Assembly (NCBI RefSeq): GCF_002005465.1
Contig: NZ_CP014691.1
Span: forward strand, 1,674,001 to 1,738,000
Length of the DNA: 64,000 bases
DNA from: Neoasaia chiangmaiensis
Lineage (GTDB): Bacteria > Pseudomonadota > Alphaproteobacteria > Acetobacterales > Acetobacteraceae
Direction: 5' to 3'
A program made the position numbers and the translations under genes. The notes under the pieces are model-generated. The model had not been told where the DNA came from, did no database searches, and worked only from the letters and a program-made list of their open reading frames with translations. Positions 3,848-37,246 of the stretch are shown here, piece after piece; position 1 is the stretch's first letter; every line of letters begins with the position of its first letter.

Positions 3848-4191
3848 CGAATGAGACCCTCCAAACCTTCGTTCCTCGTTGTCTGACCCTGCTTCGGGAC
3901 AAGCGGGCGCCACCAGTATCGGCGCATAACCAAATCGTTTCACTTGGCGTTCGCTACGTCCCCGGCTCTTTCCGAGGCCGTCCCGAATACCGTTGCCATT
4001 CCCGTAAGGCATGGCACCTGTGCAATTTGGGCAAAACTATGATGCCGGTGTCAAGACGCTTTTATGTTGTAACAAAAAGCAACGCCGTAGAGCGGATCAC
4101 GCGGATAGCCATATGCGCTGCGAGTTCCATCAGAAACGTTCAAATCATTGTCTGCAAGCGGAATATTAATGAAACGTCGATTTTAGGTCAT
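3848..4191. other. Intergenic region upstream of tonB
   Basis: About 340 bases between the tonB start and the terminator behind prfB. No credible gene was seen; the open frames on either strand lack a ribosome binding site and family resemblance. The half nearest prfB is AT-richer than the surroundings, which fits a promoter region for the tonB cluster. A TTGACA hexamer occurs on the minus strand near 4050, but I could not pair it with a convincing -10 hexamer. No Fur-box-like palindrome was obvious by eye. Confidence 0.5.
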
Positions 4192-4218
4192 AAAAAAAGC
4201 CCGGCACGCGGCCGGGCT
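4192..4218 (-). terminator. Rho-independent terminator behind prfB
   Basis: On the minus strand an 8-bp perfect GC-rich stem (4211-4218 with 4198-4205) and a 5-base loop are followed directly by seven T residues (4198-4192). It lies 18 bases after the prfB stop codon and would end the penicillin-binding protein/prfB transcript. Confidence 0.93.
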
Positions 4219-4235
4219 CGACGTCTGTTGTTATT

Positions 4236-5367: not shown

Positions 5368-5397
5368 GAAGAACTCTCCTCGAATAAGGGCTGCGGC

Positions 5398-20249: not shown

Positions 20250-20942
20250 ATGCGACTGACCCGATACCTGCCTGCCCTCTGCCTGATGACGCCCCTCGTC
20301 GCGCAGGCACAGATCACCCCGTCTTCCAGCGCGATCAATCTCGCGGGTTTCAACCTGCTGGAAACGCCGCAGGGGCACGCCGTTCTGGAACCATCCACGC
20401 AGGGGCGCGGCGGCACCATCGCATCGCCGGCAGGCGTGACGCTGGGCATGGATGCCGTGCGCTCCTCGAACTATCACACCGTGCGCCCGGCCATCGCGCT
20501 ACAGGAGACGCAGCGTTTTCGTCCGCAGGATGGCGTGACGGTGTATGACGCGGCACTGCATCTGGATCGTCTTCCGCGCAGGGGCCACACGGTAATCGCC
20601 GAGATCACCGCCGACGACCAGCCGCGTCTGGAGCTGGCTGTCGAGGGCGATACGGTGATCGTCACGGATGCAATTCCCGGCGCGGCGCCGTTCAGGGCGG
20701 TGGGCGGCACGATCTCGCCATCACGCAATGTCGCCTACCGGATCGCGATCCTGCCGAATGGCGGTGTCGGCATCACGGTGAACGGCATCAAGGGGGTGTA
20801 TGCACTACCGGTTCAGGAAGCGCTGAGCTTCCGCACGGGGCTGATGGTCAGCGACGACATCGGGCATCGTCCCGATATTGCTCAGGTCACCTTCATGCGG
20901 CTGACCAATACCCACCGCCCAACCATCGGCGGCACGATCTGA
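20250..20942 (+). CDS. Secreted protein of unknown function
   Basis: A 230-residue protein with a clear signal peptide (residues 1-21, ending A-Q-A). The mature part is rich in beta-strand-like alternation and has no cysteines in catalytic arrangement or recognised motif. A laminin-G/lyase-like beta sandwich is possible but is only an impression. Base composition returns to that of the host here, marking the right edge of the AT-rich island. A TATAAT hexamer at 20197-20202 lies about 47 bases before the ATG and may be its -10 box. It converges on the antiporter gene. Confidence 0.7.
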   Translation: MRLTRYLPALCLMTPLVAQAQITPSSSAINLAGFNLLETPQGHAVLEPSTQGRGGTIASPAGVTLGMDAVRSSNYHTVRPAIALQETQRFRPQDGVTVYDAALHLDRLPRRGHTVIAEITADDQPRLELAVEGDTVIVTDAIPGAAPFRAVGGTISPSRNVAYRIAILPNGGVGITVNGIKGVYALPVQEALSFRTGLMVSDDIGHRPDIAQVTFMRLTNTHRPTIGGTI

Positions 20943-20952
20943 TACCTGCGCC

Positions 20953-22197
20953 TCAGCCGGGGTAGAGTCGGCGCGCGACACGTTCCATCGTCAGACCCTG
21001 CACGACGATGGTGAACACGACGACGCCGTAACAGATGGGCAGAAGGAGGGCCCGCAGCTCCCCCGGCGGCAATCCCAACGCAAGTGAGACGGAAATACCG
21101 CCACGCAGGCCGCCCCAGGTCAGGACGCCCAGCATACGGCCACGGTCCCAATGCAGGAGATAGCCCGGCAGCGTCGAGAACAGCACGCTCAGGCAGCGTG
21201 CGCCCAATGACAAGGGGATGACGATCGCCGTCATCAGCATGGCCGTTCCGTCCGGCGTTACGTCCAGGATCTGCAGGCCGATCAGCAGGAACAACAATAC
21301 GTTCAGCACCTCGTCGATCAGGTTCCAGGCCGAATCGAGTTCCCCGCGGGAAGCAGGCTCGACCGTCGCGCCATCGTTTCTGGCACCGAAGCACAGGCCC
21401 GCCACCACGACGGCGATCGGCCCGGACATGCCGAAGCGATTGGCCATGCTGAAAGTCCCCGTCGCGAGCGCGAGGGAAATCAGGAGATCGATATGCGCGT
21501 CGCGCTGGGCACGCAGAAGACGCAGGGCGATCCATCCGGTCACGGCACCCAGCAGGCCGCCGCCGATCGCTTCCCGGCAGAAGGCGACGGCCATGTCCGT
21601 CCAGACAAGATCGTGACGATCACCCGTCGCCAGACCGATCGTGACACCGAAGATCACGACGCCGACCCCGTCGTTGAACAGGCTTTCGCCGGCGAAAACA
21701 GCCTGTAACGGTCCCGGCAGCCCCAAACGCTTCAACATGCCCACGACCGAGACCGGGTCCGTCGGTGCAAGGATCGCCCCGAGCACGACGCACCAGCTGA
21801 ACGGGATCGGCCGCTCAAGGAGGGAGCACAGGAGCCAGACCGCCGCCGCCAGAAAAACGACGGAGAGGATGGTGCCCAGAACAGCCAGCGCCGCGACGGA
21901 GGCCAGACGGGCGCGCAGATGCGCGAGGTTCACCTGCATCGCGCCGGCGAAAAGCAGGAAACACAGCGCGCCATTCAGCAGCGCCTGCGGCAGGTTGATG
22001 AGGCGCAGCGCCGTTCTCGGCCACGCCTGCAAATCGTAGGCGGGAATCAACGGGTTGAGCACCATCACCAGCATCGACAGCAGCAGGGAAAACACCAGCA
22101 CGCCAATCGTCATCGGCAGGCGGAGCGTGTGATGGTTGGCCATGCTCAACAGGGTGGACAGCGTCAGGAGCACGGCGATCAGGGTAATGGTATCCAT
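20953..22197 (-). CDS. CPA1-family Na+(K+)/H+ antiporter
   Basis: A 414-residue membrane protein with about twelve hydrophobic helices. The segment A-I-L-A-P-T-D-P-V-S-V-V-G and the F-N-D-G-V-G-V-V-I-F helix with conserved N-D/D-G pair are CPA1 (NhaP/NHE) signatures; the T-D-P and N-D residues form the ion-binding site. The C-terminal cytoplasmic domain is missing or very short compared with long NhaP proteins. It would exchange cytosolic cations for protons, useful in acid-forming hosts. Ion preference cannot be predicted. Confidence 0.88.
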   Translation of the reverse strand: MDTITLIAVLLTLSTLLSMANHHTLRLPMTIGVLVFSLLLSMLVMVLNPLIPAYDLQAWPRTALRLINLPQALLNGALCFLLFAGAMQVNLAHLRARLASVAALAVLGTILSVVFLAAAVWLLCSLLERPIPFSWCVVLGAILAPTDPVSVVGMLKRLGLPGPLQAVFAGESLFNDGVGVVIFGVTIGLATGDRHDLVWTDMAVAFCREAIGGGLLGAVTGWIALRLLRAQRDAHIDLLISLALATGTFSMANRFGMSGPIAVVVAGLCFGARNDGATVEPASRGELDSAWNLIDEVLNVLLFLLIGLQILDVTPDGTAMLMTAIVIPLSLGARCLSVLFSTLPGYLLHWDRGRMLGVLTWGGLRGGISVSLALGLPPGELRALLLPICYGVVVFTIVVQGLTMERVARRLYPG

Positions 22198-22252
22198 GGA
22201 ACAGATGGCTGGCGGTTCCCCTGACGGACGTCAAGAAAAACACGCCCGCCGC

Positions 22253-22819
22253 TCATGCAGCCCGGTTCGGCAGCTTCGCCACCCAGTCGGCCACGGAATC
22301 TCCGCTGCCGATGTCATTCTGGATCAGTCCGTCGACCATGAATGTCGGGGAGACGTGAACACCGTTCTGCCGCGCGTATTGGCAGTGCCATTTGATGGCG
22401 CGATCGAGATCGGGAATGGCGAATGCCGCATGCAACGCGACGCCGCTATATCGTTCGAGCCGGGCGATGATATCGTTCGGCGTGGCGTTCATGTTCGGGC
22501 CACCGGCATGATGCTCGAATTCGAACGCCTCGCGATGCGCTCCGATCGCCGCCATGACGCGTTTGGCCGTTTCCCTGCCGCCGTCCAGCGTCGAAGCCGC
22601 CAGGATGCAGCGCGTCAGCACGCCGGAGAACATGTGCCATGGTTGCGATTGCAGGCGGATTTTCATCGTGACGCGATCGGCCCCGGCTTCGGCGAGAAAA
22701 TCGTCGAGCTTGCCGAAAGCGCGGACGGAGAACGGACAGGTCGGCTCCAGAAAAACCTCGAACGTCAGATCGCCGTGTCCCCATACAAGTGGATCCGCAC
22801 GCCAGTTCGTCTCAGTCAT
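22253..22819 (-). CDS. DsbA-family thioredoxin-fold protein with single active-site cysteine
   Basis: A 188-residue protein with the thioredoxin/DsbA fold pattern: T-F-E-V-F-L-E-P-T-C-P-F-S near residue 20, a helical insertion, and the cis-proline region V-S-P-T-F-M-V-D-G. The usual C-P-x-C is C-P-F-S, so only the first cysteine is present; it cannot form the internal disulfide and may be a glutathione- or isomerase-type relative. There is no signal peptide, so it acts in the cytosol. AAGGA is 8 bases before the ATG. Divergent from the small helix-hairpin-helix gene. Confidence 0.8.
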   Translation of the reverse strand: MTETNWRADPLVWGHGDLTFEVFLEPTCPFSVRAFGKLDDFLAEAGADRVTMKIRLQSQPWHMFSGVLTRCILAASTLDGGRETAKRVMAAIGAHREAFEFEHHAGGPNMNATPNDIIARLERYSGVALHAAFAIPDLDRAIKWHCQYARQNGVHVSPTFMVDGLIQNDIGSGDSVADWVAKLPNRAA

Positions 22820-22891
22820 CGCTGGTTCCTTTGCCTGAAACCTATGATACGCTTGGCTTGCCCGCTCCGTTGCCTGACAGGTTCATGTTCC

Positions 22892-23185
22892 ATGTCTGCT
22901 GCCGCTCGCGCCCACCCACTTCTCGCACTGCGCAATATTGGCAAGGCGGCGCTGGCGGATTTCAGGATTCTGGGCATCACCACCGTCGAGCAACTGGCGA
23001 CGCAGGATGCCGACACGCTTTACGTGGCGCTCTGCCGCAAGACCGGCACGCGTCACGATCCGTGCGTGCATGACGTGTTCGCCGCCGCCATCCATCAGGC
23101 ACGCACGGGCGAGGCGCTGAACTGGTGGCAGTTCACGCCGGCGCGCCGCGACCGTCAACAACGGGGCGATTTCCCCGCTGTCTGA
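22892..23185 (+). CDS. Small helix-hairpin-helix protein (Cdd1/pathogenicity-locus family)
   Basis: A 97-residue protein. Residues 9-45 read L-L-A-L-R-N-I-G-K-A-A-L-A-D-F-R-I-L-G-I followed by a second helix pair, the helix-hairpin-helix pattern of the Cdd1 family. The family's conserved C-terminal segment with D-P-C-V-H-D-V-F-A-A-A-I and N-W-W is also present. The function of the family is unknown; DNA binding is inferred from the fold. An ATG at 22892 is the best start; the frame is open far upstream but only over the opposing DsbA-like gene. Confidence 0.78.
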   Translation: MSAAARAHPLLALRNIGKAALADFRILGITTVEQLATQDADTLYVALCRKTGTRHDPCVHDVFAAAIHQARTGEALNWWQFTPARRDRQQRGDFPAV

Positions 23186-23190
23186 CTGAT

Positions 23191-24168
23191 TCAGAACTTT
23201 TCGCCGACCATTTCCTCGCTCTTGCGCCAGAGCGCCTCGGCGCGGTCCGGGTCGAGCGCATAAGCCCGCACGCCTTCGTTCATCAGGCCGAGCGGCTGAT
23301 CGTCCGGCACGATGTGGCTGACATGACAGTTCTCGCAGTAATGCGCACCGACGGCATCGGCATCCGCCACCACGCCGGCCCAGACGGACGTCGCCGCGCC
23401 CTGCGGCACGGTCTTGAACTGGAACGGCGGCTGGCCTTCCGCTGCCGCCTGTTCGTTGATCTGCGCCACCATGGCCTCGATCTGGCCCGCCGGCATATGG
23501 CGCGCAAGTTCGGTCATGATGCCACCGGGATGCACGGCCGTCGCGCGCACGCCGCGTGCGCGATGGCGCCGGTCGAACGCGACGGCAAAAAGAATATTCG
23601 CGGTCTTGGAACGACCATAGGCCACGAACGGCGCATATTCCGTGGTCCTGAAGTCGGGGTCATCGAGATCGACATCGGCGAAGCGATGGCCGGACGATGC
23701 GAGGTTCACCAGCCGCGCCCCATCGCGCAGCAGACCGGCAATCCGGTTCACGAGAACGAAATGGCCCAGATGGTTGGTGCCGAACTGCGTCTCGAAACCA
23801 TCCTTCGTATAACCGAGCGGCGTCGCCATGACACCGGCATTGGCAACGATCAGGTCGAAGGCATCGCCGCGTGCGTTCAGGGCGTCGGCGCAGGCGCGCA
23901 CGCTGGCGAGATCGGCCAGATCGAGTTCGACCACCTCGAAGCCGCCGCCGCTGTCCTGCGCGGCCTGCCGCACGACGTCCGTGGTCTTATCGGCCTTCGC
24001 CAGATCGCGCGCCGTGCCGATGACGTGCGCGCCGCGTGCCGCGAGCGCCCGTGCGGTCTCGATCCCCAGCCCTGCGGAAACCCCCGTCACAAGCACACGC
24101 CTGCCCTGGAGAGAGACAGTGCCGAGCACGTCGTCGGTCGTGGATGTCGCGCCGAAAGTTTGTGTCAT
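23191..24168 (-). CDS. Short-chain dehydrogenase/reductase (WW-oxidoreductase-like)
   Basis: A 325-residue Rossmann-fold oxidoreductase. V-T-G-V-S-A-G-L-G is the cofactor loop, A-N-A-G-V-M follows, and Y-G-R-S-K gives the catalytic tyrosine and lysine, with the serine in N-L-A-S-S. The length and the C-terminal region match the retinol dehydrogenase/WW-domain oxidoreductase-like subgroup. The long upstream open frame is spurious: the ATG at 24168 has CGGAG 7 bases before it and begins the conserved protein. It is divergent from a tetR gene over two tandem palindromes, so TetR probably represses it. Confidence 0.9.
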   Translation of the reverse strand: MTQTFGATSTTDDVLGTVSLQGRRVLVTGVSAGLGIETARALAARGAHVIGTARDLAKADKTTDVVRQAAQDSGGGFEVVELDLADLASVRACADALNARGDAFDLIVANAGVMATPLGYTKDGFETQFGTNHLGHFVLVNRIAGLLRDGARLVNLASSGHRFADVDLDDPDFRTTEYAPFVAYGRSKTANILFAVAFDRRHRARGVRATAVHPGGIMTELARHMPAGQIEAMVAQINEQAAAEGQPPFQFKTVPQGAATSVWAGVVADADAVGAHYCENCHVSHIVPDDQPLGLMNEGVRAYALDPDRAEALWRKSEEMVGEKF

Positions 24169-24221
24169 GATAGGCTCCGAAAGAACGAGGGGCGCGCCGG
24201 GGCGTGTCCGAAAATATAAAC

Positions 24222-24262
24222 GGAATGTTGTTCCGCTTATTATGTGCGGAGTGATATTCCGC
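24222..24262. promoter_or_regulatory. Two tandem palindromes, likely TetR operators
   Basis: The 113-base gap between the divergent oxidoreductase and tetR genes holds two related dyads: CGGAA-N5-TTCCG at 24222-24236 and GCGGA-N7-TCCGC at 24246-24262. Each right half continues into the same sequence TTCCGCTTA. Their centres are 25 bases apart. Symmetry, repetition and location fit operators for the adjacent TetR protein. Confidence 0.7.
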
Positions 24263-24281
24263 TTAACAAGAGGGGAGACGT

Positions 24282-24866
24282 TTGTCCGACGCGAAAAAAT
24301 CCGCCCGGCGACCACGCCGCGATGGGGCGGAGAACCGCCGGAAACTGATCGAGGCCACGAAAGCGGCGTTTTCAGCGGGGGAGCACGATGTTCGCATGGA
24401 CGAGATCGCGCGCCGCGCCGGTGTCGGCGTCGGGACACTTTATCGCCATTTCCCTAATCGGGACGCCCTGATCGAGGCTGTCTATCGTGCGGAGGTCGAA
24501 AAGCTGGCCGACATGGCCCGGCAGCTGGCCCGGACCCATGCCCCGCTCGATGCCCTACGCGCGTGGATGCTGGTGTTCGTCGACTACGTCGCGGCCAAGC
24601 AGCTCATCGCGCCGGCGCTCAACGTGCTGGTCAGTGGATCGTGCACGCTTTACCAGACGACAAGCGACGTGATTACGACGGCCATCGACACGCTGACGGC
24701 ACGTGCCGTGGCCAGCGGCGATCTGCGGGCCGACGTGGAGCCGATGGACCTGCTGCGCGCGCTTGTCGGCGTCTCGAACGTGGCCGCCGCGCCCGACTGG
24801 GCGGCAGGGGCGCGGCGACTGGTGGACATCCTGATCGCCGGTTCGCGGTCAGGCGCGCAACCGTAG
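24282..24866 (+). CDS. TetR-family transcriptional regulator
   Basis: A 194-residue regulator. The N-terminal helix-turn-helix reads M-D-E-I-A-R-R-A-G-V-G-V-G-T-L-Y-R-H-F-P, the TetR signature; the C-terminal ligand domain matches the AefR/SBP-like group. It starts with TTG at 24282, five bases after GGGGAG. It is divergent from an oxidoreductase gene and most likely represses it and itself through the two palindromes between them. Its last 18 bases overlap the 3' end of the opposing lysE-type gene. Confidence 0.9.
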   Translation: MSDAKKSARRPRRDGAENRRKLIEATKAAFSAGEHDVRMDEIARRAGVGVGTLYRHFPNRDALIEAVYRAEVEKLADMARQLARTHAPLDALRAWMLVFVDYVAAKQLIAPALNVLVSGSCTLYQTTSDVITTAIDTLTARAVASGDLRADVEPMDLLRALVGVSNVAAAPDWAAGARRLVDILIAGSRSGAQP

Positions 24867-25481
24867 CAGCAACCCGCCGAATCCCATGAAGATGGTGCCG
24901 GTGACACGGTTGAACAGGCGCTTCATGCCTGGCCCGGAGATGACACGGGCCACCCCCTGCCCACCGATGCCGTATGTCAGGAGCCAGAACATCTCGCTGA
25001 TCATGAAGGTCGCGATCAGAATGACGAATTGCGGCGCGGATGGCGCGTGACGATTGATGAATTGCGGGAAGAAGGCAGCGGCGAACAGGAGCAGTTTGGG
25101 ATTGCTGATCCCGATCAGGAAGCCGCCGCGATAAAGCTGGCGAAGAGACAGCCCGGGCGTCGCCAGCGTCTCGCCTGTCGCGGCAGGCGCATCGTGCACG
25201 GGCGCGCGCCAGGCCTTGATCCCGAGATAGATGAGATAGGCCGCGCCCGCATAACGGATCACGTCGAACAGGCGCGGCTCGGCAGCCAGAAGCGTACCGA
25301 CCCCGGCAGCGGAGACCACCAGCGCCAGGAACAGCGCCGTCAGGCAACCGCCCATCGCGGCGAGACTGCGGCGCAGGCCGACATGCACGCTGCGCGACAG
25401 GGCATGCAACATGTTCGGCCCCGGCGTGCCCGAAAGAAGAAAGACGGTGACCGCGAACAACCACCACGTATGCAGCGTCAT
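24849..25481 (-). CDS. LysE-family amino-acid/metabolite exporter
   Basis: A 210-residue inner-membrane protein with six hydrophobic helices. The N-terminal L-L-S-G-T-P-G-P-N-M segment and the G-F-L-I-G-I-S-N-P-K motif in the middle are typical of the LysE/RhtB exporters. The substrate (amino acid, homoserine lactone or other) cannot be told. The ATG at 25481 has AAGGGA seven bases before it; an open extension upstream lacks support. It converges on tetR with an 18-base overlap. Confidence 0.88.
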   Translation of the reverse strand: MTLHTWWLFAVTVFLLSGTPGPNMLHALSRSVHVGLRRSLAAMGGCLTALFLALVVSAAGVGTLLAAEPRLFDVIRYAGAAYLIYLGIKAWRAPVHDAPAATGETLATPGLSLRQLYRGGFLIGISNPKLLLFAAAFFPQFINRHAPSAPQFVILIATFMISEMFWLLTYGIGGQGVARVISGPGMKRLFNRVTGTIFMGFGGLLLRLRA

Positions 25482-25783
25482 GCCAGTTCCCTTGTCATGT
25501 TTGCATGAATGGCAGGGCTGACTATCGCCCGATGCACGGCCCCGCGGCAATTTCCCGTATATTTCCGATGAATTAAATGTTATTCATTTTTCCAGGTCGT
25601 CTTTCATTCTGGAAGTGCGACTATTCGGTCTTTTTTCCTTCGCAGTGGCACTTTCCTGAATCACGCCTGTCGTGGATCGTCGCCCAGTCCACCGTGTGGC
25701 TTTGCCGCTGCGCGATACCGGACGCTGCCCCCTCAGACGTCGCAGGACTCTCCGCCGTTTTCACGTAGGGGAATCATGAAACA
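25482..25783. other. Upstream region of nuoL
   Basis: Some 300 bases with no supportable gene. A small open frame at 25577-25768 has no family resemblance. A dyad ATGAAT-N8-ATTCAT lies at 25568-25587 in a locally AT-rich stretch and could mark the promoter of either flanking gene. AGGGGA at about 25766-25771 probably serves nuoL. Confidence 0.4.
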
Positions 25784-27628
25784 ATGCATGCGACACTCCT
25801 GCCGTTCATCGTGCTTTGTCCCCTGATCGGGGGCGCTCTCCTTCTTCTTTCCGCCGGTCGAATGCCACGGCTCGCCACGGGTTTCGTCGGTGTCGGCTCC
25901 ATCGGTCTCGCAGCCTTGCTGGCGGCATGGCAGGCCCGACTTTTCGCTTATCTTCCCGATACGGTCGGCAGCGTGCAGACACCGCTCTGGAGCTGGATGC
26001 ACGGCGCGGGACTCGATATCCGGATCGGCTTCACGCTCGACGCATTGTCCGTCGTCATGATGCTGGTCGTCACGGGCGTCGGGTTCCTGATCCATCTCTA
26101 TGCCTATGGCTACATGCGTGACGATCCCGATATCGCGCGCTTCTTCAGCTACATGAACCTGTTCGTCGCCGCCATGCTGGTGCTGGTCTTCGCGAACGAC
26201 CTGCTGGGGTTGTATGTCGGCTGGGAGGGCGTGGGGGTCTGCTCCTATCTGTTGATCGGTTTCTGGTACAAGGAAGCCGCCAATACCGCAGCGGCGAACA
26301 AGGCCTTCGTCGTCACGCGCATCGGCGATGCGATCATGCTGTGCGGCCTGTTGCTGCTGGCCGTCCATGCCGGCACGCTCGATATCGCGACATTGACGCA
26401 TCCGCAGCCGGGCGTCCTCTCGCCCCATATCGTCACCGTCGCCTCTTTCCTGCTGTTCGGTGGCGCAATCGCCAAATCGGCGCAGGTGCCGTTGCAGACT
26501 TGGCTGCCGGACGCCATGGCAGGCCCGACCCCGGTTTCCGCGCTGATTCATGCCGCGACGATGGTGACGGCGGGCGTTTATCTGATCGCCCGGCTGCATC
26601 TGCTGTTCGCGATGGCACCACTGGTCATGACGGCCGTCAGTGTCGTGGGCGTCGTCACGCTCCTGCTGGCGGCGGGTGCCGCGCTGGTGCAGACCGACAT
26701 CAAGCGCATTCTCGCCTATTCCACCATGAGCCAGCTTGGCTACATGTTCCTCGCGCTGGGCAGCGGCGCCTGGGAAGCATCGATCTTCCACCTCGTCACC
26801 CATGCTTTCTTCAAGGCCCTGCTCTTCATGACGGCGGGCGCGATCATCCTGCGCCTGCATCATGAGCAGGACATCTTCAGGATGGGCGGGCTGGCACGGA
26901 AGATGCCGTGGATTACGGCCGCGTTCGTGGCCGGCTCGGCGGCTCTGGCCGGCCTGCCGGTCATCACGGCCGGATTCTACAGCAAGGAGATGATCCTCCA
27001 GAACGCCTGGCATTCTGATCCGCTGCTGTGGGGCGGGGCGCTGCTGGGCGCCTTCATGACCTCGACCTATATCTTCCGCTGCGTGTTCATCGTCTTTCTT
27101 GGCGCCCCACGCACCGAGCCCCATGGCCGCACGGGCTGGACGATGGCCGTGCCGCTCGTCTGCCTGACGGTTCTCGCACTGGCGGGCGGCATGATCGACG
27201 CCCCCAGCCCGCTGACGCCGGGCCATATGCTCTCGCGTCTCGTCTCGCCGTTCTTCGGCAAGCCGGGCGCGGAGGGCGCGACATGGCTGATGGTCGTCGG
27301 CTCGCTGATCCCGCCGATGGGCATCGTGCTCGCGTGGCTGATGTGGCGGTATGGCGATCGCATGCCGGCGATGAACCCGCTGGCGCGGCTGGCCCGCACC
27401 GGCTGGGGGTTCGATACGGTCTATGACCGTCTGGTGGTCACGCCGTTCGTGGCGCTCGGCCGCCTCAACATCAATGACATCTTCGATCGTCTCTCCACAG
27501 GGGCCGCAGCCGGCGCGGATGCCGGCGGCCATCTGCTGGGGCGGATGCAGAATGGACAAGTCCGCCGCTATGCCAGCTGGATCGCAGCGGGCACGGTAGC
27601 GGCCCTTTGCCTGGCGGTGTTCTCATGA
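25784..27628 (+). CDS. nuoL: NADH-quinone oxidoreductase subunit L-like (NuoL)
   Basis: A 614-residue antiporter-like membrane subunit with about 15-16 hydrophobic helices. G-W-E-G-V-G-V-C-S-Y-L-L-I-G-F-W and Q-V-P-L-Q-T-W-L-P-D-A-M-A-G-P-T-P-V-S-A-L-I-H-A-A-T are the NuoL signatures, with the proton-path glutamate and lysines. The C-terminal part includes the long lateral helix region, and a final helix, as in true NuoL, so it is longer than DabB or MrpD. nuoM begins inside its stop codon. No other complex I gene lies near: upstream is lysE, and no nuoN follows. Confidence 0.93.
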   Translation: MHATLLPFIVLCPLIGGALLLLSAGRMPRLATGFVGVGSIGLAALLAAWQARLFAYLPDTVGSVQTPLWSWMHGAGLDIRIGFTLDALSVVMMLVVTGVGFLIHLYAYGYMRDDPDIARFFSYMNLFVAAMLVLVFANDLLGLYVGWEGVGVCSYLLIGFWYKEAANTAAANKAFVVTRIGDAIMLCGLLLLAVHAGTLDIATLTHPQPGVLSPHIVTVASFLLFGGAIAKSAQVPLQTWLPDAMAGPTPVSALIHAATMVTAGVYLIARLHLLFAMAPLVMTAVSVVGVVTLLLAAGAALVQTDIKRILAYSTMSQLGYMFLALGSGAWEASIFHLVTHAFFKALLFMTAGAIILRLHHEQDIFRMGGLARKMPWITAAFVAGSAALAGLPVITAGFYSKEMILQNAWHSDPLLWGGALLGAFMTSTYIFRCVFIVFLGAPRTEPHGRTGWTMAVPLVCLTVLALAGGMIDAPSPLTPGHMLSRLVSPFFGKPGAEGATWLMVVGSLIPPMGIVLAWLMWRYGDRMPAMNPLARLARTGWGFDTVYDRLVVTPFVALGRLNINDIFDRLSTGAAAGADAGGHLLGRMQNGQVRRYASWIAAGTVAALCLAVFS

Positions 27629-29112
27629 TGATGCTCCCTGCCCTGGTCATCCTCCCGCTGCTGGGCGGCATCGTCGCCTGGCTCGTCGGACGGAACGCGA
27701 CCGATTCCCGCCTGCCCTGGTATGTCTCGATCGCCACGCTGGTGATCGAGACCGGGCTCCTGCTGGCCACCACCGTCGCGGCCATGAGCGCGACCGGACC
27801 ATGGCTCGCGCATTTCTCCATGCCGTGGGTTCCCCTCCTTGGCATCGACGCGCGGCTGGACATGGACGGGCTCAGCCTCGTCCTGCTCTGGCTGTCCCTG
27901 ATCCTGTCGTTCCTGTGTATCGTCGTCTCGGCCCGCGACCAGCATGAGTCGGGGCTGTTTCAGGCCATGCTGCTGGCCACAATCTCGGGCGTGAACGGCG
28001 TTTTCGTCGCCACCGACATGTTCCTGTTCTTCTTCTTCTGGGAACTGATGCTGGTGCCGATGTATGTTCTGATCCTGCAATGGGGTCATGAAGAGCGCCA
28101 GCGCGCGGCGATGAAGTTCTTCCTGTTCACGCAGGGTAGCGGACTGTTGATGCTGCTGTCCGTCCTCGGGCTTGTCTGGGTGCATTTCCAGCGCACCGGC
28201 GTGCTGACTTTCGATTACTTCGCGCTCGCGAACACGCCCATGTCCGCCACCCTGTCCATGGTGCTGATGCTGGGATTCTTCATTGCCTTTGCCGTGAAGC
28301 TGCCGGTCGTGCCGCTGCATATCTGGCTGCCGGACACCCACACGCAGGCGCCGACGGCGGGCAGCGTCCTGCTGGCCGGAATCCTGCTGAAAACCGGTGG
28401 CTACGGACTGATCCGCTTCGTCGTCATGCTCTTCCCCACGGCGGCGGCACATTTCACGACATGGGCGCTGGCGCTCGGGGTGGCCGGCATTCTCTACGGC
28501 GCCTGGCTGTCCATGGTGCAAACCGACATGAAGCGGCTGGTGGCCTATAGCAGCGTCAGCCACCTCGGCTTCGTGCTGATCGGCGTCTTTTCCGGCACAC
28601 CGCTGGGCGTCGAAGGCGCGGTGGTGCAGATGGTGGCGCATGGGCTGAGCACGGGCGCGCTGTTCACCATCGTCGGCTCGTTGCAGGACAGGCTGCACAC
28701 GCGCGACATGCGGCAGATGGGCGGCCTGTGGCCGATGCTGCCACACCTCTCGGCCATGGGACTGATCTTCTCCATCGCCTCTCTCGGCCTGCCGGGCATG
28801 GGCAATTTCGTGGGCGAGTTCCTGGTGCTGTTCGCGGTCTGGCATGTCAGCCCGCTGGCGGCGGTGCTCGGCACGGTCGGGCTGGTCCTGTCGGCCGTCT
28901 ATTCGCTGACGATGATGGGGCGTGCGTTCTTCGGGCCGGAGCGGAAGGATCGTGCCGCCCTGCCGGATTTCGGCTTTCGCCCCATGGTGTTGCTGGGCGT
29001 CACGCTCGTCATGCTGATCGCACTCGGCACCTATCCGCAACCCGTTCTGGATCTGGTGACACCCGCGCAGGCGGCAAGCGCCCCCGGCACGGCGCTTCGT
29101 CCGATGCGCTAA
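27625..29112 (+). CDS. nuoM: NADH-quinone oxidoreductase subunit M-like (NuoM)
   Basis: A 495-residue subunit with about 14 helices. F-F-F-F-W-E-L-M-L-V-P-M-Y has the conserved proton-path glutamate, and K-L-P-V-V-P-L-H-I-W-L-P-D-T-H-T-Q-A-P-T-A-G-S has the lysine and the quinone-oxidoreductase M signature. The start at 27625 overlaps the nuoL stop (ATGA). In complex I it translocates protons; standing with nuoL alone it could belong to a split complex I locus or to another proton-linked complex. A strong stem-loop follows the gene. Confidence 0.93.
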   Translation: MMMLPALVILPLLGGIVAWLVGRNATDSRLPWYVSIATLVIETGLLLATTVAAMSATGPWLAHFSMPWVPLLGIDARLDMDGLSLVLLWLSLILSFLCIVVSARDQHESGLFQAMLLATISGVNGVFVATDMFLFFFFWELMLVPMYVLILQWGHEERQRAAMKFFLFTQGSGLLMLLSVLGLVWVHFQRTGVLTFDYFALANTPMSATLSMVLMLGFFIAFAVKLPVVPLHIWLPDTHTQAPTAGSVLLAGILLKTGGYGLIRFVVMLFPTAAAHFTTWALALGVAGILYGAWLSMVQTDMKRLVAYSSVSHLGFVLIGVFSGTPLGVEGAVVQMVAHGLSTGALFTIVGSLQDRLHTRDMRQMGGLWPMLPHLSAMGLIFSIASLGLPGMGNFVGEFLVLFAVWHVSPLAAVLGTVGLVLSAVYSLTMMGRAFFGPERKDRAALPDFGFRPMVLLGVTLVMLIALGTYPQPVLDLVTPAQAASAPGTALRPMR

Positions 29113-29117
29113 TCACA

Positions 29118-29146
29118 AGCCGGCCCTGCCGTGTGCAGGGCCGGCT
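29118..29146 (+). terminator. Stem-loop after nuoM
   Basis: A 12-bp perfect GC-rich stem (29118-29129 with 29135-29146) with a 5-base loop, six bases after the nuoM stop. Only a short pyrimidine stretch follows, so termination may be partial, but the position and strength of the stem favour a terminator. Confidence 0.75.
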
Positions 29147-29641
29147 CTTCCGGTCACGCGCCTGCGCGATCAAACGACTGACCTCTTAAATTATTTCTTA
29201 TGCGTGTTGGTATTGCATCGTCACACTGATGCAGTCGAGACCTGCGCCATCGCAACATTGTCGTAGTATTCCGGCGTATTTTTCATTACCACCTGAAGGT
29301 TACAGAATGTAACCGAGCGGTATTACATTTCGTGTTCGATACGTATGTGTTACCTGTTTGCAATGGTCGCTTACAGATTCGACGTTACACATCACACGGC
29401 AACTTGACACAAAACGTTCATCAAGTGAATGAACTGTAACCCGTAACGAATACGAGACAGACAACGTGTGACGCACCGGCGCGCCCGACATCCAGGAATT
29501 CCGCGTTTATAACGAAAGATTTCTGGAAGCGATACGCTGCAAACTGTTTCAGTGGACATGACAAGCTCGTTGCCTTTGATGCCAGACATTTCTCGTTTGT
29601 CATGAGGCGGTTAACGAAAAACATAGTGGATAGATGTTGAA
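29147..29641. other. Long leader region of the TonB-dependent receptor gene
   Basis: About 500 bases without a convincing gene; short minus-strand frames here have no ribosome binding site or family pattern. The region is AT-richer than its surroundings and holds several copies of GTTAC/GTAAC, including a perfect 17-bp palindrome. It probably carries the promoter and operators of the receptor gene at 29642. Confidence 0.55.
29298..29314. promoter_or_regulatory. Perfect 17-bp palindrome GGTTACA-GAA-TGTAACC
   Basis: Seven-base arms flank a 3-base centre. Related half-sites occur downstream on the same side of the receptor gene: TGTTAC near 29348, CTTACAG near 29370, GTTACAC near 29384, and TGTAACC with GTAACG near 29435-29447. 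Their density suggests binding of one dimeric regulator or several copies. No regulator gene is adjacent. Confidence 0.55.
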
Positions 29642-32600
29642 ATGAAACACAATATCGCCAGAAATTTTCGGCGAAGCCGAACGTTGCTGCTGACCTTCTC
29701 CGCGATGAGCGGCATGACCGTCGTCCCGGCAATGGCACAGACCACGAGCGCGCCGACACATACCGTTCACAAGGCGCATGCGAAGAAAACGCGTGCGACC
29801 ACCCGCACCACAACCACCACGCCCGTGGCGGCGGCACCGGTCGCGCCGGCAGGCACGGCCGCCAGCCGGAATGCCAGCGTGGTTTCGCAGACCGTGCCGA
29901 CGGAAGCCGCGCCGGTCCGGTCCGGTTCGGAAAACATCGTGGTGACGGGCACGCTCTTCCGCGATCCGAATGCCACCAGCGCCTCGCCGATCACGCACAT
30001 CACCTCACGCGATCTGCAGCAGCGCGGCATCAAGACCGTCTCGCAGGCCATGCAGCTTCTGTCATCCAACGGCGCGGGCAACCTCACCAACGCCTGGTCG
30101 GCGGGCGGCGGTTTCGCGGCCGGCGGCTCCGCGCCGTCCCTTCGCGGCCTGAGCACGGATTCCACGCTCGTGCTGATGGACGGCCAGCGCAACTCCTACT
30201 ACCCCCTCGCGGACGACGGCGAACGTAACTTCGTCGATACGAACTGGATTCCGCAATCCATCGTCCAGACGATCGACGTCCAGCAGGACGGCGGTTCCGC
30301 GACTTACGGCGCCGACGCGGTGGCGGGTGTCGTCAACATCATCACCCGTAAGGAAATCAAGGGCTTCGAAGGCAACGCCGAAGGCGGCCTCAGCCAGCGC
30401 GGCGATTCGGGCCATCAGCGCCTGTATGCCACGTATGGTCATGGCGACCTGAACAACGACGGCTACAACTTCTACGTCAACTCCGAGTATCAGCAGGACG
30501 ATCCGCTGTATTACCGCCAGCTTCAGGGGCCGTACAACAACGGCGACCTGACCGGCATCGGCGGGACGAACGGCAATTATAATATCCTGCAGGACGGCAC
30601 GATCCGGAACTTCACCGGCACGCCGACCGCGCTGGTGCGCCCCAGCAATGGCGCAGGCGGCGGCGTCGGCCCATGGCAGGTGCTCAATCCCGCCGGATGC
30701 GGTGCGACGGGTGGCGCACTCGTTACAGGCACGCAGACTGCCGGTGACGGTGGCCGCAGCCAGGCCTGCACCATGAACTCGCAGCGTTACGAGCAGGTCG
30801 CGCCAGATCAGCGGCGCATCAGCGCCACAGCGCACTTCACGGCCAACGTGACCGAAAATTCGCAGTTGACCGCGATGTTCAACTATTCGCAGAACCGGAC
30901 CATCGTCACGGGGACGCCTTACGGCACGTATGGCAGCACGTCCTATACCCAGGATTTGCAGGCCAACGTGCAAGGCACGCCGCTGCCGGCCACCTTGCCG
31001 AACGGTCAGCTTAACCCGAACGATCCGTTCGCAAGCCAGGGGCAGGCCGCCCAGATCGCCTATCGTTATGGCGACCTGATCCCGACGACGCAGGCGCTGA
31101 GCCAGAACTTCCGCGGCTCCGTCGACTATGGTGGGTCCGTGGCTTCCAAATGGGGTTCGGACTGGATTTACGACGTCAATTTCGTTGGCATGAACACGCT
31201 GCTCGATCAGCGCATCACGGGCGTGCCGACCATCAACGGCGAAATCAACGCGATCAACAACGGCACGTATAATTTCGTCGATCCGTCGCAGAATTCTCAG
31301 GCCGTTCTGAACTCGATCGCGCCGCCGAACGTCATTCATGCCCGCACGCAGGAATATTCCGGGCAGGCAACGCTGAGCAAGGGCCTGTTCCGCCTGCCGG
31401 GCGGTATGACGAAGCTCGCGATCGGCGGCAACTGGCGTTATGAGGCGTTGAACGACCCGAGCGCCAACCCGTCTCATCCGGACGATCCGGGCGAGCAGTA
31501 CACGGGCTACATCAACCCTGTGAACGCGCGCGGTCATCGCTGGGTGGAATCAGGCTTCTTCGAAGTCAACCTGCCGTTCATCAAGATGCTGAATGCCGAC
31601 GTCTCCGGTCGTTACGATCATTATTCGGAAGGCTTCAGCCACTTCTCGCCGAAGGTCGGCGTGCAGTTCAAGCCGTTCAAGCAGTTGACGCTGCGTGGCA
31701 CGTTCTCCAACGGCTTCCGCGTGCCGAGCTTCGCGGAAACCGGCGGCTCGAACGTCGGCTACACGTCCTACACCATCACGAACCCGGCCTTCCTGGCGCA
31801 GCATCTCAATCCGGACGGCTCGATCGATCCGTATGCGCAGGCCTATCGTATCGGCAACAACACGGCCGGCAACCCGAACCTGCGCCCGGAAACCTCGACC
31901 AACTTCACGGGCGGCCCGATCTTCCGTCCCACGAACTGGCTGACGCTGAGCGCGGAATACTACTTCATCCGCAAGAACCACTACATCGCGCCGAACCCGA
32001 TCGGTGTGCAGACGGTGGCGGATGCGTGGGTCGCGAATGGCAATGCAGGCCTGCCGCCGAACGTGACGGTCACGCCGGGCATCCCCGACCCGCAAAATCC
32101 GGGTGGATCGCTGCGCCCGGGTATCATCAACCTCGGCTACATCAACACGAACAAGATCTCCACGGATGGTGTCGATCTGTCGTTCGAGGCGCATTCCCGC
32201 CTGCCGGGCGCGCTGCATGATGTCCTGTGGTTCAGCAAGGGCACGGCTACCTATGTCCGCAGCCTGAACCTGACCCTGCCGGACGGCGAAGTGCAACATT
32301 ACGCCGGCACGCTTGGCCCGTATGGCGCGGTGTCTGGCTCAGGAACGCCGCGCTGGCGCGCCAACTGGCAGAACAGCTTCACCTACAAGAAGCTGACCCT
32401 CACGCCGACCGTCTACTACACCAGCGGCTACAAGAACGTGGCCGAAGACCAGACGGGCGCGGACAGCCGCTTCGGCTGCGGTGACAACGTGCTGACCTCG
32501 AGCTCCTTCGTGCCGACGCGTTGCCACACCAAGTCGTTCTGGGACGTGGACCTGACCGTGAACTACAAGTTCAGCAAGCGCTGGTCCGCCTATGCCAACG

Positions 32601-32731
32601 TCTACAACCTGCTCGGCTTCCGCGCACCGTACGACTTCGGCACCTATGGCGGTTATCTCTACAACTCGTCCTGGGCACAGAACGGCGTGGTCCTGCGTTC
32701 CTTCCAGTTCGGCATGAACGTCACGCTCTGA
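29642..32731 (+). CDS. TonB-dependent outer-membrane receptor
   Basis: A 1029-residue receptor: signal peptide ending near A-M-A-Q (about residue 33), a Thr/Ala/Pro-rich linker of about 60 residues, then the plug domain (from I-V-V-T-G-T-L-F-R, with L-V-L-M-D-G-Q-R and Y-G-A-D-A-V-A-G-V-V-N-I-I-T). A beta-barrel follows to the end, with a large extracellular insert containing two cysteines near residues 359 and 378. It lies in the group without an N-terminal signalling domain, often annotated for carbohydrate or vitamin uptake. It stands alone, with a long leader upstream and a strong terminator downstream, so substrate inference from neighbours is not possible. Confidence 0.92.
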   Translation: MKHNIARNFRRSRTLLLTFSAMSGMTVVPAMAQTTSAPTHTVHKAHAKKTRATTRTTTTTPVAAAPVAPAGTAASRNASVVSQTVPTEAAPVRSGSENIVVTGTLFRDPNATSASPITHITSRDLQQRGIKTVSQAMQLLSSNGAGNLTNAWSAGGGFAAGGSAPSLRGLSTDSTLVLMDGQRNSYYPLADDGERNFVDTNWIPQSIVQTIDVQQDGGSATYGADAVAGVVNIITRKEIKGFEGNAEGGLSQRGDSGHQRLYATYGHGDLNNDGYNFYVNSEYQQDDPLYYRQLQGPYNNGDLTGIGGTNGNYNILQDGTIRNFTGTPTALVRPSNGAGGGVGPWQVLNPAGCGATGGALVTGTQTAGDGGRSQACTMNSQRYEQVAPDQRRISATAHFTANVTENSQLTAMFNYSQNRTIVTGTPYGTYGSTSYTQDLQANVQGTPLPATLPNGQLNPNDPFASQGQAAQIAYRYGDLIPTTQALSQNFRGSVDYGGSVASKWGSDWIYDVNFVGMNTLLDQRITGVPTINGEINAINNGTYNFVDPSQNSQAVLNSIAPPNVIHARTQEYSGQATLSKGLFRLPGGMTKLAIGGNWRYEALNDPSANPSHPDDPGEQYTGYINPVNARGHRWVESGFFEVNLPFIKMLNADVSGRYDHYSEGFSHFSPKVGVQFKPFKQLTLRGTFSNGFRVPSFAETGGSNVGYTSYTITNPAFLAQHLNPDGSIDPYAQAYRIGNNTAGNPNLRPETSTNFTGGPIFRPTNWLTLSAEYYFIRKNHYIAPNPIGVQTVADAWVANGNAGLPPNVTVTPGIPDPQNPGGSLRPGIINLGYINTNKISTDGVDLSFEAHSRLPGALHDVLWFSKGTATYVRSLNLTLPDGEVQHYAGTLGPYGAVSGSGTPRWRANWQNSFTYKKLTLTPTVYYTSGYKNVAEDQTGADSRFGCGDNVLTSSSFVPTRCHTKSFWDVDLTVNYKFSKRWSAYANVYNLLGFRAPYDFGTYGGYLYNSSWAQNGVVLRSFQFGMNVTL

Positions 32732-32779
32732 TCGACATCGTATGACCGGATGGGGCGTCCCTGCGCCGCCCCGCTCCTG

Positions 32780-32814
32780 AAAGCCGGCCCCGGTAATCGA
32801 GGCCGGCTTTTTTT
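32780..32814 (+). terminator. Rho-independent terminator after TonB-dependent receptor
   Basis: A 10-bp stem (32780-32789 with 32801-32810) and an 11-base loop end in a run of seven T residues (32808-32814). It lies about 50 bases after the receptor stop and could also cut transcription from the convergent copper-receptor-like gene in part. Confidence 0.93.
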
Positions 32815-32845
32815 ATGGCCGGCAAACCGGCGTCAGAACCAGGTA

Positions 32846-35029
32846 TCAGAACGATGTCGTGACGCTCAGATTGACCGAGCGCCCCATGACGCCGACCGGC
32901 ATGAGATTGCCGCGCGCGATATAGTTGCCCAGCGCATAGCCGCCAAGCGGCTGATAGGCGCGCTGATTGAGCACGTTGTCCAGCCCCAGTTCGATCCGCG
33001 CCATCCGCCATTTGTAGGACGCGCTCAGATTCAGCAGCGCGTAACCCGGCGTGCGTGGCTCGGTGCGCAGCGCGTCGATCGAGCTCTTGCGCTTCACCAG
33101 CACGACCTCGGCGCGGCCCGTCAGGTCGCCGAACGTCTCGTCCAGCGCCACGAAACCGTTGGTCGGCATCTGGTGATAAAGACCGGTATGAGCATCCAGA
33201 TCCTGGCCGCGCACCCAGTCGATCTTGGTGCTGAACACGCCCGTTCCCCAAGCCGGCGACGACCATGCCTGATAATGGCCGGAGGCATTGATGCCGTAGA
33301 TCTGCGCATTGTGATTGACGAATTGCAGCAGGCCGAAACCGTTCGCATAGGTCGCGAGACGGTTCACGTTCACGTAGTGCTGCACATAGGTGTAATAGGG
33401 CTGCACCTTGACATCCCAGCGCTTCTGCCCGGCATCGTGCCAGTCGGCGGTGATCGACGCGGTATTGGCGATCTCCGGCGACAGGTTGTTGTTGCCGACG
33501 TAACCGTTACCATCGCCGAACCAGCCGATCATGGTCGCCGCCATCTGGCTGCGGCCCCATGCATAGCGCTCGAAGAAATTCGGCGAGCGTGTCTTGCGCG
33601 CGTATCCGCCTTCCAGCGAGAAGGTTTTCGCCGCGTCCCAGTGCGCCAACGCCGTGACATCGAAATTCACATCCGTGTGGCGATGGTCCTGCGCGTTGAA
33701 GGCATTGGCGGCCGCCGTGTCGGTGACGGTCATGTTCGACATCATGCCCATCATGCCGCTCATGCCCATCGTCGCCGTGCTGTAGGGCGATACGTTGCCG
33801 GTGTTCATCATTACCAGATCGTTGCGAATGCCAAACAATGTTTGGAAGCGCGGCGTCCAGCGCGCTTCCCACTCGGCGTAATCGCCCAGCCGGTCGCGCA
33901 CGCCGCCATTGATGTTGTGGTAGGTGTCCGGCCCCATCATCATGCTGCCCGGCAGCGGCGGCCACCAGTCGTTCAGCCCCTGATGATCGAAGGAATTACC
34001 CAGTCGCAAGGTGTTCCAGCTGCCGAGCGGCAATGTGGCCTTGATGGCGTAGCCGGCCTGACGCGAATCGTCGTTCATCGGCATGCCGGTGTTCCACGTA
34101 TGGCCGCCCTTGTCCTCAAGATCGTTCATCGCGTGCGAGACGCGCTGCCAGTAGCCGCGCACGTCCAGCGATCCCCAATCGAACACACCGCTATATTTGC
34201 CGTTCACGAAGGTGGAACGGTTATTGGTCATGTCCATGTACTGATTGGGAAAGCCCTCGTAAGGGGTATCCGTCTGGCCGAAGGTCAGGGCCAGAAGATT
34301 GCCGCCCTTGTGGAGCCCGGCGGTGACGCTATGGCTGTAGGTCTTGTAGGCGCTGGAAAGGACGGGACCGCCGCCGCCACCCATGTGGTAGTTTCCACGC
34401 TCGGCATAGGAGGCGCTGTAGTTCAGGCTGAGCAGATCGCTGGCGACCGTGGTGCTCAGGCCGCCTTCCCAGCCATTGCCGTTACTGTGATAGGCACCGC
34501 GCGCCCAGCCGGTGAACAGGATTTTTCCCCGTCGGGCGAATTTCGGATCGCGTCGTTCGACGCTGATCGTGCCCGCGATGCTGTCGCCCCCCATACTGAC
34601 GGGCGTGATGCCTGCGATCGCCGTCGCATTCGCGACCATATCCGGCGAGATATAGGACAGCGCCGGATTCATGTGATTGGGACATGCGGGTTCGATCCGC
34701 ACGCCGTCCACAATCGTCGCCACCCGGTCGTCCGCCATGCCGTTGATGACCGGCAGGGACGAGATCCCCCCTGCGCCATACAGGCTGACGCCCGGCTGGC
34801 GCGCGAAAAGTTCCGCGCTATCCGCGGAACTGAGCCGCCTCTGGCGTAAGGCTTGCGGGGAAAGGGAACTGGCAGCCTGCGGCCCGTCCATGAGCGGCGC
34901 GGTCGTGGTGACATCGAGCTCCGGCAGGTTGACGACCGGGGCGGCACAGGCGAACGACGGCGCGCCAAGGCAGGCGGCCATCAGCATGGCGCGCGTCAGA
35001 CGACGCGGCTTTGCGACAAGAAAAACCAT
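32846..35029 (-). CDS. TonB-dependent copper receptor-like protein
   Basis: A 727-residue outer-membrane receptor. After a signal peptide (about residues 1-29) the plug domain contains A-C-P-N-H-M-N-P-A-L-S-Y-I, a segment characteristic of OprC-type copper receptors, with a cysteine and methionine that ligate copper in that family. A methionine cluster (M-G-M-S-G-M-M-G-M-M-S-N-M, about residues 418-431) sits in a predicted extracellular loop. The protein ends in phenylalanine, the usual barrel-assembly signal. It is downstream of a DUF2946 gene and divergent from a second tonB. Copper uptake is a strong inference, not proven. Confidence 0.88.
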   Translation of the reverse strand: MVFLVAKPRRLTRAMLMAACLGAPSFACAAPVVNLPELDVTTTAPLMDGPQAASSLSPQALRQRRLSSADSAELFARQPGVSLYGAGGISSLPVINGMADDRVATIVDGVRIEPACPNHMNPALSYISPDMVANATAIAGITPVSMGGDSIAGTISVERRDPKFARRGKILFTGWARGAYHSNGNGWEGGLSTTVASDLLSLNYSASYAERGNYHMGGGGGPVLSSAYKTYSHSVTAGLHKGGNLLALTFGQTDTPYEGFPNQYMDMTNNRSTFVNGKYSGVFDWGSLDVRGYWQRVSHAMNDLEDKGGHTWNTGMPMNDDSRQAGYAIKATLPLGSWNTLRLGNSFDHQGLNDWWPPLPGSMMMGPDTYHNINGGVRDRLGDYAEWEARWTPRFQTLFGIRNDLVMMNTGNVSPYSTATMGMSGMMGMMSNMTVTDTAAANAFNAQDHRHTDVNFDVTALAHWDAAKTFSLEGGYARKTRSPNFFERYAWGRSQMAATMIGWFGDGNGYVGNNNLSPEIANTASITADWHDAGQKRWDVKVQPYYTYVQHYVNVNRLATYANGFGLLQFVNHNAQIYGINASGHYQAWSSPAWGTGVFSTKIDWVRGQDLDAHTGLYHQMPTNGFVALDETFGDLTGRAEVVLVKRKSSIDALRTEPRTPGYALLNLSASYKWRMARIELGLDNVLNQRAYQPLGGYALGNYIARGNLMPVGVMGRSVNLSVTTSF

Positions 35030-36316: not shown

Positions 36317-37246
36317 CTAGAGAATGGCAGCAAGCCGGGCGCGGGCTTCGTCCGCATCCCGCGCGATCTGGGCCTTCAACTCGTCCAGCCCGCTGAAGCG
36401 GCGCTCTTCCCGAAGCAGGGCATACAGCGTCACGCCCAGTTCCTGGCCATACAGGTCGCCCTCGAAGTCGAAGATATGCACTTCAACCCGGCTTTCCTGA
36501 CCATCGTTGATGGTCGGGCGACGCCCGATATTGGCGACGCCGGGCAATACCCGCCCATCCGGCAGACGCACCGTGACGGCATACACGCCGCGCGCCGGTT
36601 CGATATGCTGGCCGAGAGGGATATTGGCCGTCGGAAAACCCAGAAGCCGCCCACGCTTGTCGCCATGCGCCACGATGCCGGTAATGGTCCAGAACGTGCC
36701 GAGCTCTTCCACGACACGTTCCGGATAGCCTTCCTGCAGAAGCCGGCGAATGCGCGTGGACGAATAGGGACCACCGATATCGGCCAGCGGCGGCACGACC
36801 GTCAGCCCGATGTCCAGCCGCTCCAGCCGTTTCTCCAGAAACGGGATATCGCCACGGCGGCGATGACCGAAAGCGAAGTCCGGCCCGCAGGCGACGTGCC
36901 GCACCCCGAGCCCGGCATGCAGGACATCGTCGACGAACGCCTCGGGCGACAGATGGGAGAAATCCGCATCGAAGGGCAACTGGAAGACATGCTTCACGCC
37001 ATGTTGCGTCAATGCCTGCTCACGGGCCGCCGAGGTCATCAGACGCAGTGGCGGGTCCTGCGGGCGGAACAGCTCGCGCGGATGCGGCTCGAAGGTCACG
37101 GCGGCAAGCGGCCGGTCGGGACGGGCGGCATGCAGCGTGCGCAACAGATGGAGATGGCCGCGATGCACCCCGTCGAAATTGCCGAGTGCCGCGACGGTGC
37201 CCCGCGCTTCCTTCGGTATCGCGCACCAGTCCGTATGCAGGGTCAT
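36317..37246 (-). CDS. ribF: Bifunctional riboflavin kinase / FAD synthetase
   Basis: Makes FMN from riboflavin and FAD from FMN in the cytosol. The 309-residue protein has the FMN adenylyltransferase domain (G-N-F-D-G-V-H-R-G-H near residue 22, and the Y-S-S-T-R-I-R signature near 163) and the C-terminal riboflavin kinase domain (G-F-P-T-A-N-I and the L-Y-G-Q-E-L segment). Its start overlaps the mtnC stop by four bases, so it closes the methionine-salvage run. Coupling to mtnBDC is unusual. Confidence 0.96.
   Translation of the reverse strand: MTLHTDWCAIPKEARGTVAALGNFDGVHRGHLHLLRTLHAARPDRPLAAVTFEPHPRELFRPQDPPLRLMTSAAREQALTQHGVKHVFQLPFDADFSHLSPEAFVDDVLHAGLGVRHVACGPDFAFGHRRRGDIPFLEKRLERLDIGLTVVPPLADIGGPYSSTRIRRLLQEGYPERVVEELGTFWTITGIVAHGDKRGRLLGFPTANIPLGQHIEPARGVYAVTVRLPDGRVLPGVANIGRRPTINDGQESRVEVHIFDFEGDLYGQELGVTLYALLREERRFSGLDELKAQIARDADEARARLAAIL

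Follow-up and report, generated by a model that had tools for sequence, protein, structure and literature searches.

What does a nuoL–nuoM gene pair do when no other gene of complex I stands beside it? The question is raised by a 64,000-nucleotide stretch of the Neoasaia chiangmaiensis genome (positions 1674001–1738000 of contig NZ_CP014691.1, hereafter the window), in which two such genes, here called nuoL2 and nuoM2, follow one another (Table 1). The initial annotation of this DNA had regarded them either as half of a split complex I locus or as a proton-pumping pair serving another enzyme. A search of the whole genome, a single contig of 3.41 Mb, points elsewhere: nuoL2M2 is a surplus pair of ordinary complex I type, and the enzyme that it serves is most likely the complex I of the cell itself.

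A complete nuoA-N operon with a fused CD gene and its own L, M and N is present at 2739841–2754360 of the same contig (locus L006), 1.04 Mb away from the window pair, in the order nuoA, B, fused CD, E, F, G, H, I, J, K, L, M, N. The initial annotation had itself named a full operon with its own L and M as the finding that would speak against a split locus; the pair is therefore surplus and not half of such a locus, which is ruled out. Genome-wide, five genes with a PF00361 domain were detected, namely L1, M1 and N of the operon and L2 and M2 of the window. The NuoH family (PF00146) is represented by one gene, the operon's nuoH, and the NuoK family likewise by one. DabA (PF10070) had no match in the genome in a search that was positive in two of 14 control genomes, in agreement with the earlier opinion that a DabB–DabA type system is less likely. 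With a single gene each for the NuoH and NuoK families, DabA lacking and all five PF00361 genes accounted for, the cell's own complex I is the sole candidate partner found among the families searched. The idea of a pair serving another enzyme is without support, both proteins also falling in the fused-CD complex I branches described below. A module of a hydrogenase or formate hydrogenlyase was rejected in particular, as the single PF00146 gene leaves no additional NuoH-like anchor.

The two proteins are full-length and find their best matches in Escherichia coli. The top match of NuoL2 in the PDB was E. coli NuoL (3rko, E 3e-152), with 512 bits compared to 210 bits for MrpA (6z16), and the top matches of NuoM2 were E. 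coli NuoM in 7p61 and 3rko (E 1.3e-146). Membership of the Mrp antiporters was rejected on this best match and on the absence of mrp neighbours; no Mrp-type gene was found among the neighbours scanned with Pfam, which include the LysE exporter and the TonB-dependent receptor. Alignment to E. coli numbering bore out the statement that the proton-path residues are kept: NuoL2 retains E144, D178, K229, H254, K305, H334, H338, K342 and K399, and NuoM2 retains E144, K234, K265, H322, H348 and E407. At the proton-path or charged positions listed, NuoL2 is identical to E. coli at 12 of 13 and NuoM2 at 10 of 11. The two departures are D400E in L and E108D in M, positions at which the operon-encoded rows also deviate from E. 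coli; L position 400 is Glu in NuoL2 and in 27/27 operon rows compared. The stop of nuoL2 and the start of nuoM2 share four bases (ATGA at 27625), as had been noted before.

To place the pair among its relatives, 397 genomes of the family were searched with NuoL at a cut-off of E 1e-190, scoring a maximum of three candidates per genome. A match at this level or better was obtained in 35 genomes, belonging to 12 genera, and a second such match was not seen in nine of these genera. Two matches were present in three genomes: the host (G000), G022 and G047, the last being Tanticharoenia sakaeratensis. Gene context was covered for the 35 genomes other than G191, G227, G246, G276, G285, G299, G320, G326, G336, G342, G363 and G386, some of these 12 being probably represented among the named loci compared below; more diverged or fourth-ranked pairs would escape this count. 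In G022 (L041) and G047 (L040) the better NuoL match belongs to an orphan L–M pair, and the fetched stretch shows no further nuo gene. The second match is part of a fused-CD nuo operon that includes an L and an M (L155 and L156); L155 shows nuoA to N, and L156 shows B to N up to the end of the fetched stretch. In the host, G022 and G047 alike, L and M paralogues are thus encoded separately from a core operon which itself includes an L and an M. All three orphan pairs have intact reading frames and an L/M overlap of four bases, and the orphan proteins of the other two genera are 67–70% identical to the window's proteins.

The surroundings of the three pairs differ. The Na+/H+ exchanger, LysE and TonB receptor genes of the window do not recur beside the orphan pairs of the other two genera (L040, L041), and the neighbourhoods of the G022 and G047 pairs are also unlike each other. 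Upstream of the G047 pair lie genes which by eye resemble Ku and DNA ligase D; nuoK is absent there, and the contig (NZ_BALE01000059.1) stops 37 bases past nuoM2, so that a nuoN beyond it is possible. Remnants of nuoK, nuoJ or nuoN were not found in five flanks searched with 81 tblastn queries, which gave 151 weak matches at E 10 or less, the best E being 0.036 in any flank (G022) and 0.092 in the window's own flanks; the reported absence of nuoK and nuoN beside the window pair is thereby upheld. In a comparison of named genomes, for which 80 loci were kept (of 430 that encode a relative), nuoK directly precedes nuoL in 78 of the 80. The two exceptions are L060, the orphan of Tanticharoenia, and L122, where the contig ends within the locus. 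The open-access literature searched gave no description of a nuoLM pair standing alone in an acetic acid bacterium. A different arrangement was observed in three acidobacterial loci (L120, L121 and L132), where an inverted second M–N set lies on the other strand beside nuo L-M-N; in L121 and L132 this set includes an L-like gene.

Conservation was scored at columns invariant in 27 operon rows and E. coli, 139 in L and 96 in M. In L the host orphan retains 135/139, G022 138/139 and G047 139/139, and in M the values are 95/96, 94/96 and 93/96. When nine operon groups were scored in the same way with the focal group left out, they retained 0.94–1.00 in L and 0.93–1.00 in M; the orphans are within the ordinary range of operon-encoded NuoL and NuoM conservation. 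Four operon NuoMs (L055 and L057 of G036 and G078, L056 and L167 of G045 and G125) have long branches and retain only 0.93–0.94 of the columns invariant elsewhere; these genomes showed no orphan pair in the NuoL search.

In complex I, NuoL extends a C-terminal arm along the membrane domain. In the orphans all seven invariant columns of this arm (L 521–613) are retained, and the ratio of divergence from E. coli in L 521–613 to that in the core is 1.81–1.85, compared to a mean of 1.85 (standard deviation 0.14) for the 27 operon rows. Judged by these alignments, the arm shows no sign of release from a complex I role. An AlphaFold model of NuoL2 has a mean predicted local distance difference test (pLDDT) score of 83.1, and the 16 PDB structures closest to it in fold are L chains of E. 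coli complex I. The model contains helices at 543–561, 566–588 and 592–613, with pLDDT below 50 at 567–605 and 611–614, and it departs from the E. coli L chains by a root-mean-square deviation of about 15 Å; the placement of the arm is thus unconfirmed by the model.

Descent was investigated in two trees, one of 30 rows with L and M joined and one of 63 rows including NuoN and other kinds of complex I. In both, NuoL2 falls within the NuoL branch of fused-CD complex I and NuoM2 within the corresponding NuoM branch. The three orphans form one clade (96/96 in the 30-row tree), and the rows nearest to it are three Gluconacetobacter operons (90/92, a node not starred). The mean core distance of M2 to Gluconacetobacter M is 0.20–0.21, compared to 0.27–0.38 for operon M1 cores. 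A recent copy of the own operon was rejected, as the grouping of the host orphan with the L and M of its own operon fails in the approximately unbiased (AU) test (p-AU 0.00012). An older duplication, with the orphans and the 11 operon rows of the group to which the three host genomes belong (G000, G008, G022, G036, G045, G047, G078, G084, G125, G148 and G258) as a clade, was not rejected (p-AU 0.213) and is, on these trees, possible beside a transfer from a Gluconacetobacter-like source.

Within the orphan clade G022 and G047 group together (100/99), and a grouping of the host orphan with G022 was rejected (p-AU 0.0003). In a GyrA tree, by contrast, G047 is basal to a group with the host and G022, and a G022–G047 clade was rejected (p-AU 3.5e-05); a nuo operon tree made with a quick method is concordant with GyrA. 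This conflict between the orphan and GyrA trees, the differing neighbourhoods and the patchy presence suggest horizontal transfer of the orphan pair. The tree conflict might also be an artefact of branch attraction, the branch of the host orphan being long (0.4). The base composition of the window gives no clear signal of foreign origin: the GC content at third codon positions is 0.83 in nuoL2, 0.87 in nuoM2 and 0.83 in the neighbouring receptor gene, and 0.79 and 0.80 in nuoL1 and nuoM1.

Two nuo lineages have been distinguished in acetic acid bacteria in PMC4596401, which also proposes that Asaia bogorensis and Gluconacetobacter diazotrophicus gained an additional nuo operon, which may have been transferred horizontally. 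The gained operon is probably of the fused-CD kind. Operons termed nuo13 and nuo14 are described in PMC10715153, and the fused-CD kind would correspond to its nuo13. A fused-CD nuo operon, followed by genes for CBS-domain proteins, was also observed on a plasmid of Komagataeibacter saccharivorans (NZ_CP023037.1, 217,536 bases; L213) that is classed as non-mobilizable in PLSDB; this operon type can therefore ride on an extra-chromosomal replicon.

Since a core operon is available, no other partner was found among the families searched and the constraint is like that of complex I, we propose that nuoL2M2 is an operon of two genes, standing alone, which encodes an alternative distal pump module for a shared complex I core, an explanation that we favour but that might equally turn out to be wrong. 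The pair would have entered at least some of the genomes by horizontal transfer, its source being related to the nuo lineage of Gluconacetobacter. L2 and M2 would be expressed from their own small operon and would dock on the A–K plus N core encoded by the large chromosomal operon, with the long C-terminal arm of L2 clamping the membrane domain, and would replace L1–M1 in part of the complex I pool. Complex I would then exist in two versions that differ in their distal pumps, comparable to the exchange of NdhD and NdhF in cyanobacteria. The genes are intact, of fused-CD type and as well conserved as those within operons, and L2 and M2 may swap into complex I. A bolder form of the proposal, which we consider doubtful, is a mobile pump module for proteobacterial complex I: a bare nuoL–nuoM cassette would move between acetic acid bacteria and yield two forms of complex I that share a core but have differing proton or cation coupling, selected by the acid and membrane-potential stress of oxidative fermentation.

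Several observations weigh against an alternative pump module. The sequence tests fit simple redundancy equally well. The orphans share seven specific residues in L and none in M, compared to 6 to 12 in three control groups, and a specialised function is thus left unmarked by orphan-specific residues. The divergence ratio of the orphans is somewhat high at M residues 1–60 (1.87–2.15; mean 1.75, standard deviation 0.32) and 61–130 (1.67–1.78; mean 1.52, standard deviation 0.12), which weighs mildly against full equivalence of M2 in its first 130 residues. The test of the NuoL arm rests on seven invariant columns, and the model predicts this region poorly. Near the pairs of G022 and G047 (L041, L040) there is no match to any of 20 window genes other than the pair, and no sigma-70-like site was found in 25400–29700, where 1.0 would be expected by chance. 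The proposal also presupposes expression of L2 and M2, their assembly into the complex and a functional difference.

As orphan-specific residues are few, the main rival is plain redundancy, with L2 and M2 working in the same complex I without a meaningful difference, as dosage or back-up. We consider it unlikely: it accounts for a constraint equal to that of operon-encoded subunits and for the near lack of orphan-specific residues, but a pair kept intact in three genera at 67–70% identity to the window's proteins points to some benefit, and a second NuoL match at the cut-off, with up to three candidates scored per genome, was not seen in nine of the 12 genera. Alternatively, the pair could be a relic, either left over from a second nuo operon or brought in as a fragment, without function and not yet decayed. 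The transfer of a fragment is made plausible by the conflict with the GyrA tree and the differing neighbourhoods; with intact frames, nearly all invariant residues retained in three genomes and no nuoK, nuoJ or nuoN remnants in the flanks, however, a relic is quite improbable.

A stand-alone antiporter or proton channel without redox subunits, serving pH or Na+ homeostasis, would be in keeping with the lack of other nuo genes near the pair. Mrp A and D subunits do occur among the weaker PDB matches of NuoL2 and NuoM2 (6z16, 7qru and 7d3u), and a Na+/H+ exchanger gene lies 3.6 kb upstream. This role nevertheless appears improbable, as there is neither an Mrp-type gene among the Pfam-scanned neighbours nor a further PF00361 gene, the NuoL2 arm is not relaxed, and the exchanger is missing from the surroundings of the pairs in G022 and G047. 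Half of a split complex I, or the pump module of a hydrogenase, Dab system or formate hydrogenlyase, has nothing in its favour but the isolated position of the pair, and the full nuoA-N operon elsewhere, the one NuoH-family gene, the lack of DabA and the placement in complex I branches make it hardly credible.

An alternative pump module on one core would have parallels in known systems. In cyanobacterial NDH-1, NdhD and NdhF are exchanged on one core, giving NDH-1L and NDH-1MS (PMC9283085), and the likeness lies in extra distal antiporter genes together with one shared core. However, the extra cyanobacterial set comes with CupA/CupS and serves CO2 uptake, while here no accessory gene is evident and no specialisation visible. 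Streptomyces likewise possesses a full nuoA-N operon plus additional nuoL and nuoM, and differential incorporation of NuoL2/NuoM2 into complex I has been proposed (PMC3765725 and PMC8388888); there the second copy also comprises A2, B2, D2, H2, I2, K2 and N2, whereas only L and M are duplicated here. A surplus antiporter subunit gene is also found in the 2M complex I (nuoL-M1-M2-N), whose second nuoM is held to move an extra proton (PMC7117926 and PMC12342949). In that system the extra nuoM is inside the nuo cluster, unlike the L and M in a separate locus seen here. L2 and M2 belong to the lineage of the fused-CD complex I of Gluconacetobacter, Acetobacter and Komagataeibacter, but in the fused-CD operons of acetic acid bacteria L and M sit between nuoK and nuoN, and here they stand alone.

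The pair is a neat rather than revolutionary variant, a bare second set of distal complex I pump subunits, and it shows, in three genera of acetic acid bacteria, nature duplicating the two outermost pump subunits and no others. If L2 and M2 assemble on the shared core, swapping L1–M1 and L2–M2 in one organism could show what the distal pumps contribute to coupling, a question that is hard to address where all subunits are fixed in one operon. For annotation, the case advises caution, as an isolated nuoLM pair need not imply a split complex I.

Table 1. Positions in the window of the nuoL2–nuoM2 pair and of the features around it.
Feature	Position	Strand	Basis and remarks
nuoL2, full-length NuoL, C-terminal arm present	25784–27628	+	614 amino acids; PF00361 + PF00662; fused-CD, E. 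coli-like lineage
nuoM2, full-length NuoM	27625–29112	+	495 amino acids; Pfam PF00361
GC-rich perfect hairpin of 12 bp, probable transcription terminator, weak T tail	29118–29146	+	3' of nuoM2 stop
LysE-type exporter gene, divergent, upstream of nuoL2	24849–25550	-	PF01810, E 1.3e-35
TonB-dependent receptor gene, downstream past the hairpin	29642–32731	+	PF00593 + PF07715
Na+/H+ exchanger gene	20953–22197		PF00999; 3.6 kb upstream of the pair
Block of ~11.9 kb with nuoL2M2, missing at the collinear G078 locus	20943–32845		tblastn of window genes against L205

The strong stem-loop that the initial annotation had seen behind the pair folds as RNA with -33.2 kcal/mol (z -3.78), and one of 200 shuffles was equally good; the hairpin is not among the nine terminator-like sites of a consensus scan. 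The genes named as neighbours were recovered as well, lysE upstream and, 529 bases past the nuoM2 stop, a receptor, which is TonB-dependent.

These genes are part of a larger block that also holds the Na+/H+ exchanger, a 188-amino-acid protein without Pfam match and a short-chain dehydrogenase. Six regions around homologues of the second receptor (L205–L210) were compared, trying 20 window genes. In G078 (L205) the matches to the genes flanking the block, 20250–20942 and 32846–35029, stop 33 bases apart, with the receptor matched by tblastn at 78% in 2617–4815 and the gene at 20250 at 40% over 215 amino acids in 4849–5463. This gap fits an insertion of the 11.9-kb block in the window, as judged from one genome and with one flank matching at 40%; a deletion of the block in G078 is a possible alternative. 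Collinearity was seen in L205 only: L206, L207 and L209 gave no match to any other of the 20 window genes tried, L208 gave a 26% GT61 match, and L210 gave weaker receptor matches besides. The two TonB-dependent receptor genes, 29642–32731 and 32846–35029, are oriented tail to tail, and for the second a match at E 1e-100 was obtained in 9 of the 11 genomes that were searched, the own included. Further downstream, at 36317–39103, a riboflavin kinase/FAD synthetase gene adjoins genes for a HAD hydrolase, an acireductone dioxygenase and a class II aldolase, a run which resembles methionine salvage.

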